Shown in pieces: positions 29,812 to 31,588 of a stretch of 64,000 nt of DNA. Source of the DNA: Nitrospirota bacterium (GTDB taxonomy: Bacteria > Nitrospirota > Thermodesulfovibrionia > UBA6902 > JAJYJJ01); the NCBI GenBank assembly GCA_021789595.1, contig JAJYJJ010000001.1:1-64000 (forward strand), in the 5' to 3' direction. The notes beneath the pieces were generated by a model. That model was not told where the DNA came from. It was given only the letters and a program-made list of their open reading frames with translations, and made no database searches. The position numbers and the translations under genes are program-made. Every line of letters starts with the position of its first letter. Within the stretch, counting starts at the first letter, position 1.

Positions 29812-30417
29812 CTATCCAATCCAGACAGTCTTTTTAAAGTCTTTCATCCCTTCCACAATATGGTTTGTTGTACCTCTATAGCCGACTTTAAGTTCAGATT
29901 CAAGGTTGTAGTATTTAAGGCATGTCCCGCAGGAGAATATCTCGACACCCATGGCCTCAAGCTCTTTTAAAATTGGTATTATCTCTTCATTGACAGTCGT
30001 TAACTTCACACCTGCGTTTAGAAAAAAAATAGTATGTGGAAATTCCTTATATACCTTCATTGTCTCAAAGAATGACTTCATCAGGATCTTGCCGAGTTCT
30101 TCATCCTTACCCATTGTATCAGTGGCAATAACGAGGAGTAAGTGCTTCTTCTCTTCGGGCAGGACAGACCCTGCCCCTACAGCTTCTTCTGGGCCAATTT
30201 CACACGGATAACCTTTAACTATCTTTACACGCCAGTAATCATCCTCTTTTGTTGTCTCTGAAAAAAAACCATTCTTTGAAGCAAACCTTGCGAGATTTTT
30301 TACAGATGCCTCATTGTCCACGAGGACATCCACAATGCCTTCGCCTATCTTTGAAAGGGCCTCTTCTGCCATTATCACAGGCTTGGGACAACCCATGCCC
30401 CTTGCGTCAATCTGCAT
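29812..30417 (-). CDS. yedF: YedF-type selenium metabolism protein (TusA/SirA domain + DsrE-like domain)
   Basis: MQIDARGMGCPKPVIMAEEAL then HLLLVIATDTMGKDEELGKILMKSFFETM...FLNAGVKLT...GVEIFSCGTCLKYY. Confidence 0.9.
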   Translation of the reverse strand: MQIDARGMGCPKPVIMAEEALSKIGEGIVDVLVDNEASVKNLARFASKNGFFSETTKEDDYWRVKIVKGYPCEIGPEEAVGAGSVLPEEKKHLLLVIATDTMGKDEELGKILMKSFFETMKVYKEFPHTIFFLNAGVKLTTVNEEIIPILKELEAMGVEIFSCGTCLKYYNLESELKVGYRGTTNHIVEGMKDFKKTVWIG

Positions 30418-30444
30418 ATTTCCTCCTTTGTCATTAAAGCAATC

Positions 30445-30543
30445 TGGAGAGGGATAGTGGGAATCGAACCCACCAGGCTCCCTTTTTTGGTTCAGCCTGC
30501 ACTGGGTTTGCAGCCCAGGTAAGGCACCAGCCCCTTGTCCCTC
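30445..30543 (-). tRNA. selC-like tRNA with Cys anticodon GCA (tRNA-ReC class), CCA encoded
   Basis: GAGGGACA|A|GGGGC-TGGT-GCCTT|A C|CTGGG-CTGCAAA-CCCAG|TG|CAGGCT-N14-AGCCTG|GTGGG-TTCGATT-CCCAC|TATCCCTC|T|CCA. 8-bp acceptor (one C.A mismatch), 4-nt D-loop, long variable arm, anticodon GCA, discriminator U73. Confidence 0.88.
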
Positions 30544-30551
30544 GCTAACAA

Positions 30552-30580
30552 TTTATAGATAGATATAATTAATAAGTCAA
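30552..30580 (-). promoter_or_regulatory. Sigma70-type promoter for the selC-like tRNA
   Basis: TTGACT-N17-TATAAA, about 8 nt upstream of the tRNA 5' end. Confidence 0.75.
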
Positions 30581-30694
30581 ATAGAAAATATCTATATTAA
30601 AGACCCGATTTATGGATTATGCTGATATGGAAACTATTTGCTCTGATAATGCATTTGCCGATACTAATACATTTATCGCACTACATTGCAGGAA

Positions 30695-31588
30695 TCAAAT
30701 GCCTTTTGATTCGGCCTTTATGTGTTCTAAGAATATTTTGTATACCGTGGGAAGCGTCCTTTTTCTGTGGGTTATGATATAGAATTTGCGTTTCATTTCT
30801 ATGCCGTTTATCTTTATCTCTTTGATTGTTTTGAATTTTAGTTCATCAGTTACAGACAGCCTTGATAGTATCGAAATGCCCAACCCTGCCTTTACAGCCT
30901 GTTTTACAGCATCTGTGGAACCAAAAATACCTGCAATCTTGATATCTTCAATTGTGACCCCTTTACCTTCTAATATCTTTTCAGTTTCTCTTCTGGTTCC
31001 TGAACCTTCCTCGCGTAAGATCATGGGAATCTTGATTAACTCCTTTAAGGTTATAATATGACTTTTCATTAGGGAGGGTGCAGAGACGAGGATTAACGCG
31101 TCTTCCATAAATGGTATGTAGGTTATCTTTTCATTATTTAGTTTTGCGCCGACGATTCCTAACAGCAATTCATTTTTCAAGACCCTTTCAGCAGTTTCTC
31201 TGGAATCAGATACAAGTATCTGAAAGGAAACAGAGGGATATTTTTTCTGAAATGATGCTATTATGGATGGCATTAAATATGTGCCTGGAATTGTGCTTGC
31301 ACCAATGATCAGTTCGCCTGCGATCTCATTTTTAAATTGGCAGATGACCTCTTTAATGTTATTGGTTTTTTCTATTATATCCATTGCATAATTATATAAG
31401 ACCTCTGCTTCTCTTGTGGGTATGATTGTTCTACCCAATCTATCAAATAATCTGCAGTTCATCTCAGCTTCCATCGCCTTTATGTGGTCACTTATGGTTG
31501 GCTGTGAGAGGTAAAGCCCTTCAGATGCCTTTGAAAAGCTCCTGTTCTTAAATACAGATACAAAGACCCTTAGATGATGTATGTCCAT
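30695..31588 (-). CDS. LysR-family regulator, probably the selenium metabolism-associated type
   Basis: MDIHHLRVFVSVFKNRSFSKASEGLYLSQPTISDHIKAMEAEMNCRLFDRLGRTIIPT; immediately upstream of the selC-like tRNA and yedF on the same strand. Confidence 0.85.
   Translation of the reverse strand: MDIHHLRVFVSVFKNRSFSKASEGLYLSQPTISDHIKAMEAEMNCRLFDRLGRTIIPTREAEVLYNYAMDIIEKTNNIKEVICQFKNEIAGELIIGASTIPGTYLMPSIIASFQKKYPSVSFQILVSDSRETAERVLKNELLLGIVGAKLNNEKITYIPFMEDALILVSAPSLMKSHIITLKELIKIPMILREEGSGTRRETEKILEGKGVTIEDIKIAGIFGSTDAVKQAVKAGLGISILSRLSVTDELKFKTIKEIKINGIEMKRKFYIITHRKRTLPTVYKIFLEHIKAESKGI

Follow-up and report, generated by a model that had tools for sequence, protein, structure and literature searches.

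The genes for a LysR_Se regulator, a tRNA of the tRNA-ReC type and YedF lie on one strand of this Nitrospirota genome and probably form a selenium-response module, in which the regulator would control both the tRNA and yedF, and the tRNA would allow SelB to insert Cys at UGA codons for Sec under selenium shortage. This reading follows from setting two published systems, Cys recoding in D. nigrificans and repression by the archaeal regulator HrsM, beside the cluster. The genes, the form of the tRNA, the conservation of the operator, the recurrence of the cluster, the host Sec machinery and its UGA targets were observed directly. A broader reading is held more tentatively: a selenium-sensing LysR protein may switch a single tRNA and thereby turn UGA-SECIS from Sec to Cys across the selenoproteome, as a regulated genetic-code switch in Nitrospirota and Chloroflexota. 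If true, one transcription factor would reset the meaning of a codon in many proteins simultaneously. The conserved regulator, defined operator and partner genes make it directly testable when and why bacteria write Cys over Sec.

The cluster and its predicted promoter

The window is the whole stretch of DNA that was analyzed, 64,000 nucleotides in length. The features of the cluster are given below in the order of transcription on the minus strand, which runs from LysR through tRNA-ReC to yedF.

30695 to 31588, minus strand: LysR_Se regulator gene, clade A paralogue, 297 aa; NF040786 at 312.4 bits (cut-off 250)
30581 to 30595, minus strand: predicted operator, LysR-type dyad ATAGATATTTTCTAT (T-N11-A), abutting the -35 box
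30575 to 30580, minus strand: -35 hexamer TTGACT of the predicted ReC promoter
30552 to 30557, minus strand: predicted -10 hexamer TATAAA, 17 nt after the -35 hexamer and 8 nt before the tRNA
30445 to 30543, minus strand: tRNA-ReC gene (selC* tRNA-Cys type) with GCA anticodon, U73 and encoded CCA; matched by RF01852 and covariance model R1
29812 to 30417, minus strand: yedF, TusA-DsrE type selenium metabolism protein, 201 aa; TIGR03527 at 206.7 bits (cut-off 110)

The original prediction had placed a LysR regulator, a selC-like tRNA-Cys and yedF on one strand, with the tRNA between the two protein genes, co-oriented with them and behind its own promoter. All three genes lie on the minus strand at these positions, the tRNA is matched by the Rfam tRNA-Sec family between LysR and yedF, and a promoter is predicted 8 nt before it. 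The proposed kinship of the regulator to the selenium-associated LysR group and the placing of yedF in a selenium-metabolism family are both borne out by scores above the family cut-offs, and the observation of a selenium-linked cluster is confirmed. The regulator has LysR_substrate and HTH_1 domains. The TIGR03527 match to YedF spans 194 of the 194 positions of the model; in the domain search TusA was matched, and DsrE was not called at 1e-8. The tRNA is of the selC* tRNA-Cys type, for which the name tRNA-ReC is used here.

The end of the encoded CCA and the start of yedF are separated by 27 nt that contain an AAGGAGG site, and no terminator-like site was found on the minus strand between ReC and yedF. 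Because of this short gap and the lack of a terminator-like site, ReC and yedF probably share one promoter, with yedF transcribed through ReC. The consensus promoter scan requires T as the last base of the -10 hexamer, so the TATAAA of the ReC promoter is absent from its list. The T-N11-A arrangement of the predicted operator is the form of a LysR box. This operator falls within positions 30544-30700, the stretch earlier proposed for LysR footprinting. In the host genome, an extended operator pattern has its sole zero-mismatch match at 30581-30595 and one more match with two mismatches; a reversed control pattern also gave two matches within two mismatches.

Recurrence of the cluster and conservation of the operator

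A covariance model built from 11 ReC tRNAs was used to search 230 genomes of the window's class. Every match scoring roughly 65 bits or higher was read individually, and one at 65.9 bits was a UCA tRNA-Sec and was moved to the controls (12 in all). The search yielded 79 ReC loci, with the window counted, in 75 of the 230 genomes and 18 families. Since no ReC scored above threshold in 155 of the 230 genomes, and most genomes of the class encode SelB and LysR_Se, both LysR_Se and Sec decoding can do without ReC.

The order LysR-ReC-YedF on one strand is present at 17 of the 79 loci, in 8 families; this count, like all those over ReC loci, includes related loci and is not one of independent events. 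On the strand of ReC, YedF follows within 5 kb at 32/79 loci, and the gap to ReC, which can be as wide as 5 kb, is no more than 300 nt at 15/79. LysR precedes ReC by 1.5 kb or less at 22/79 loci on the same strand and at 25/79 when both strands are counted; in three of these 25 (G004, G095 and G061) it is directed away from ReC. The arrangement and orientation around ReC are not fixed. One or the other partner is near ReC at 45/79 loci, representing 14 of the 18 families. In 42 loci the flanks reach 1.5 kb or more upstream and 5 kb or more downstream; either partner is present in 31 of these and both in 14. Neither LysR nor YedF was found beside the tRNA-Sec control loci (0/12). When neighboring ORFs were clustered without preselection, YedF ranked first (35/79) and LysR second (26/79). 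The original prediction had called for a neighborhood search and named lack of recurrence in other genomes among its grounds for refutation; the arrangement does recur, both in the class and, as described below, in a second phylum, and the suggested regulated switching between Sec and Cys decoding is thereby supported in part.

A gene of the SelB cluster is present at 6/79 ReC loci. Where genomes of family f19 encode two or more SelB proteins, one of these genes immediately follows ReC in a selC*-selB*-like order (L143, L125, L126 and L108). In five genomes, a selD with TGA is on the ReC contig within ~4 kb of ReC (G005:C8, G004:C32, G154:C203, G155:C35 and G164:C101).

The operator recurs with the tRNA. 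The strict dyad ATAGR-N5-YCTAT begins 75 to 45 nt upstream of ReC at 18/79 loci, against 0.08 expected from the density of the strict dyad elsewhere, and at these 18 loci it usually abuts the -35 box of ReC. With one mismatch or fewer, the dyad is found at -53..-50 from ReC at 24/79 loci. It is absent in its strict form upstream of the tRNA-Sec controls (0/12). In a ranking of all 5-mer dyads of the same spacing, ATAGA came first with 11/79 loci and the runner-up had 2.

The dyad is also found before other genes. It precedes transglutaminase(-ReC) operons in G202, G208 and G105, transglutaminase genes upstream of YedF in G064, G070 and G076, and YedF directly in G164. In G088 it stands before HGD-D, and no ReC match was found in the stretch examined. 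Box-bearing operons with ReC or YedF were also seen to contain a transglutaminase-like gene, HGD-D and a BcrAD activase (L101, L115, L121, L150, L152 and L244), and these genes may also belong to the regulon. A stretch resembling AGGCYATACCTGAAT is conserved immediately 5' of ReC in families f20 and f21 (L091, L092, L093, L096, L101 and L106), often within a short ORF ending in TGA. Some families have a conserved short ORF (ATGARRTAY..TGA) ahead of ReC that was considered as a possible UGA leader peptide, but its ATG is absent in G208 when the sequence is read by eye.

LysR_Se itself was found in 207 of the 230 class genomes. A tree of 48 LysR_Se proteins, rooted at the midpoint and including one very long Chloroflexota branch, separates clade A (support 95/91) from clade B (99/98). 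Clade A holds all 27 class LysR genes from ReC loci and 9 others, and clade B holds 11 others; the 20 genes that are not adjacent to ReC were picked by hand from a list and are not a random sample. The host genome encodes one LysR_Se of each clade, that on contig C33 in clade A and that on C7 in clade B. The strong form of the hypothesis, that LysR_Se is a regulator specific to ReC, was rejected on account of its presence in 207/230 genomes and the occurrence of clade A without an adjacent ReC.

These distributions bear on the best-surviving alternative, that LysR_Se governs yedF and other selenium genes while ReC, constitutive or barely used, is merely their neighbor. Clade A LysR clusters without ReC in the stretch do exist, in G088 (with the box, HGD-D, activase and transglutaminase) and in G075 (with YedF), and at 34/79 ReC loci, 11 of them with full flanks, neither LysR nor YedF is present in the DNA examined. 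However, the strict dyad is fixed at -53..-50 from ReC itself at 16/79 loci, and it is kept at ReC in loci of the Thermodesulfovibrio group that have no LysR or YedF alongside. This positioning relative to the tRNA speaks against the neighbor-only explanation, which is unlikely.

To look beyond the class, GTDB genomes were scanned with a sequence pattern, which returned 55 ReC-like matches, some beyond Nitrospirota; the pattern accepts only an exact anticodon arm, and variants, the window's own ReC among them, escape it. In the Chloroflexota class of G230, the covariance model matched in 24 of 393 sampled genomes; the anticodons of these matches are GCA in 5, UCA in 14 and unread in 5. YedF adjoins ReC in all five GCA loci, within ~1.6 kb and upstream of ReC in two, and a LysR_Se-like gene adjoins in three of the five. 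The one Chloroflexota LysR tested scored 248.2 bits against the NF040786 cut-off of 250. In G230 itself the order is YedE, Se/S carrier, kinase-like, ReC and YedF, and YedE with the Se/S carrier is present in some of the Chloroflexota ReC loci. In the DNA examined, no adjacent YedF or LysR was seen at the Actinobacteria-type ReC loci L172, L190, L192, L193 and L201, the Ktedonobacter-labeled L223 or the Obscuribacterales L210.

Identity of the tRNA

The Rfam tRNA-Sec model RF01852 matches positions 30449-30543 with 55.5 bits (gathering threshold 47, E 1.6e-8), and covariance model R1 gives the window tRNA 89.9 bits; ARAGORN did not report it. At minimum energy the tRNA folds into a full cloverleaf that includes a long variable arm, and its acceptor has 7 of 8 pairs, with a C7-A66 mismatch. 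Eight acceptor pairs are formed at 70/79 ReC loci, and the T-stem has five pairs in 76/79, including the window. The anticodon is GCA at 78/79 loci and GTA at one. The latter, in G085 (L147 5391-5486), is a ReC-type tRNA with a Tyr anticodon and U73-CCA, with YedF 34 nt further on. In an alignment of 11 ReC tRNAs, 98.0% of stem cells are paired and both sides have changed in 10 of 23 stem pairs, which none of 500 shuffles matched. Because of this covariation and the recurring gene order, tRNA-ReC is not a chance match.

The window ReC combines a tRNA-Sec-like fold, Cys identity and coexistence with a normal tRNA-Sec and SelB. It has a five-pair T-stem and not the modified 8/4 form with a bulged A51a, and it is therefore classed by its Cys identity on a tRNA-Sec body and not by the bulged subtype.

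ReC might instead work with EF-Tu as one more Cys tRNA for UGC/UGU codons, as the GCA anticodon and U73 together make up the Cys identity set (PMC7609411). Against this, the 8-bp acceptor and long variable arm are features for SelB that weaken EF-Tu binding (PMC7609411), and ReC is linked to selenium genes. Moreover, the GCA tRNA of the ReC type in D. nigrificans relies on SelB, not on EF-Tu, to decode Sec UGA as Cys (PMC11415595). An ordinary role in Cys decoding is thus improbable. Insertion of Sec at UGC by a tRNA-Sec variant appears less probable again. A GCA anticodon on a tRNA-Sec body is what such a tRNA would have, and one has been reported in Aeromonas salmonicida (PMC11415595), but U73-CCA is present at 79/79 ReC loci, in contrast to G73 in the host's own tRNA-Sec, and the host also has a normal UCA tRNA-Sec. 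That the tRNA is only a 5' leader or processing element regulating yedF, with no adaptor role, is very unlikely despite the closeness of the yedF start, given the conserved anticodon, CCA and stems and the presence of YedF within 300 nt at so few of the loci.

Proposed mechanism and known systems

The host genome encodes the Sec machinery (selA, a single selB and a UCA tRNA-Sec). UGA targets exist in this host, because its selD and fdhA-type genes contain in-frame TGA: selD has one, one FdhA has one, and TIGR01591 finds two matches with TGA beside others without. Two FdhA-type genes, C4:110347-112170 and C33:168178-170181, differ in that one has an in-frame TGA and the other does not; this is possibly a Sec/Cys isogene pair. 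A bootstrapping role, in which ReC is needed for the first Cys form of SelD, was rejected as the chief purpose of ReC. Every class entry listed for SelD contains a single in-frame TGA, in genomes with or without ReC, and Sec-SelD accordingly does not need ReC.

In the selenium-response module proposed here, LysR_Se would bind the ATAGR-N5-YCTAT dyad beside the -35 box and control a single transcript carrying tRNA-ReC and then yedF. ReC, with a tRNA-Sec body accepted by SelB and the Cys identity elements U73 and GCA, would be charged by CysRS, and SelB would deliver Cys instead of Sec at UGA codons with a SECIS. Under selenium shortage, selenoproteins such as SelD and formate dehydrogenase, whose reading frames contain UGA, would then be completed as Cys forms and not truncated. 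The scarce selenium would be handled by YedF and, in relatives, also by YedE, the Se/S carrier and the HGD-D/activase pair. When selenium is plentiful, the transcript would be repressed; we infer the sign of the regulation, its effector and the effect on the whole selenoproteome. Cys recoding through SelB and the archaeal use of LysR_Se as a selenium switch are carried over from published relatives.

Earlier work has already described Cys recoding by ReC and linked both LysR_Se and YedF to selenium. Charging by CysRS, SelB binding and Cys at UGA have been shown for the D. nigrificans tRNA (PMC11415595), and Nitrospirae are already among the named tRNA-ReC hosts (PMC7609411). The LysR_Se-ReC-YedF cluster with its operator was not found in the literature searched, in which ReC was covered by the reviews PMC7609411 and PMC11415595. 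The window tRNA resembles the published tRNA-ReC or selC* tRNA-Cys (Mukai 2017; Vargas-Rodriguez 2018, via PMC7609411 and PMC11415595) in its tRNA-Sec-like body, U73, GCA and the normal tRNA-Sec alongside. It differs in having 8/5 arms, where PMC7609411 gives 8/4 with an A51a bulge, in its linkage to LysR_Se and YedF, and in the one SelB of the host genome.

The selC*-selB*(-cysS*) operons of Syntrophobacterales and Desulfobacterales (PMC7609411) likewise join a recoding tRNA to a protein partner, but the partners here are YedF and LysR, and SelB-cluster genes are found at few of the loci. In Methanococcus, the LysR family is also implicated in Sec/Cys switching (PMC5322559, PMC11097638). There, the archaeal LysR_Se protein HrsM keeps Cys isogenes repressed as long as selenium is adequate, whereas here the regulator is predicted to act on a tRNA gene, which would have consequences for every UGA-SECIS gene. 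The same protein families make up the YedE-YedF-DUF3343-LysR_Se clusters (Lin 2015, PMC5322559), for which the available part of PMC5322559 mentions no tRNA-ReC member; in the cluster described here, tRNA-ReC stands between LysR_Se and yedF.
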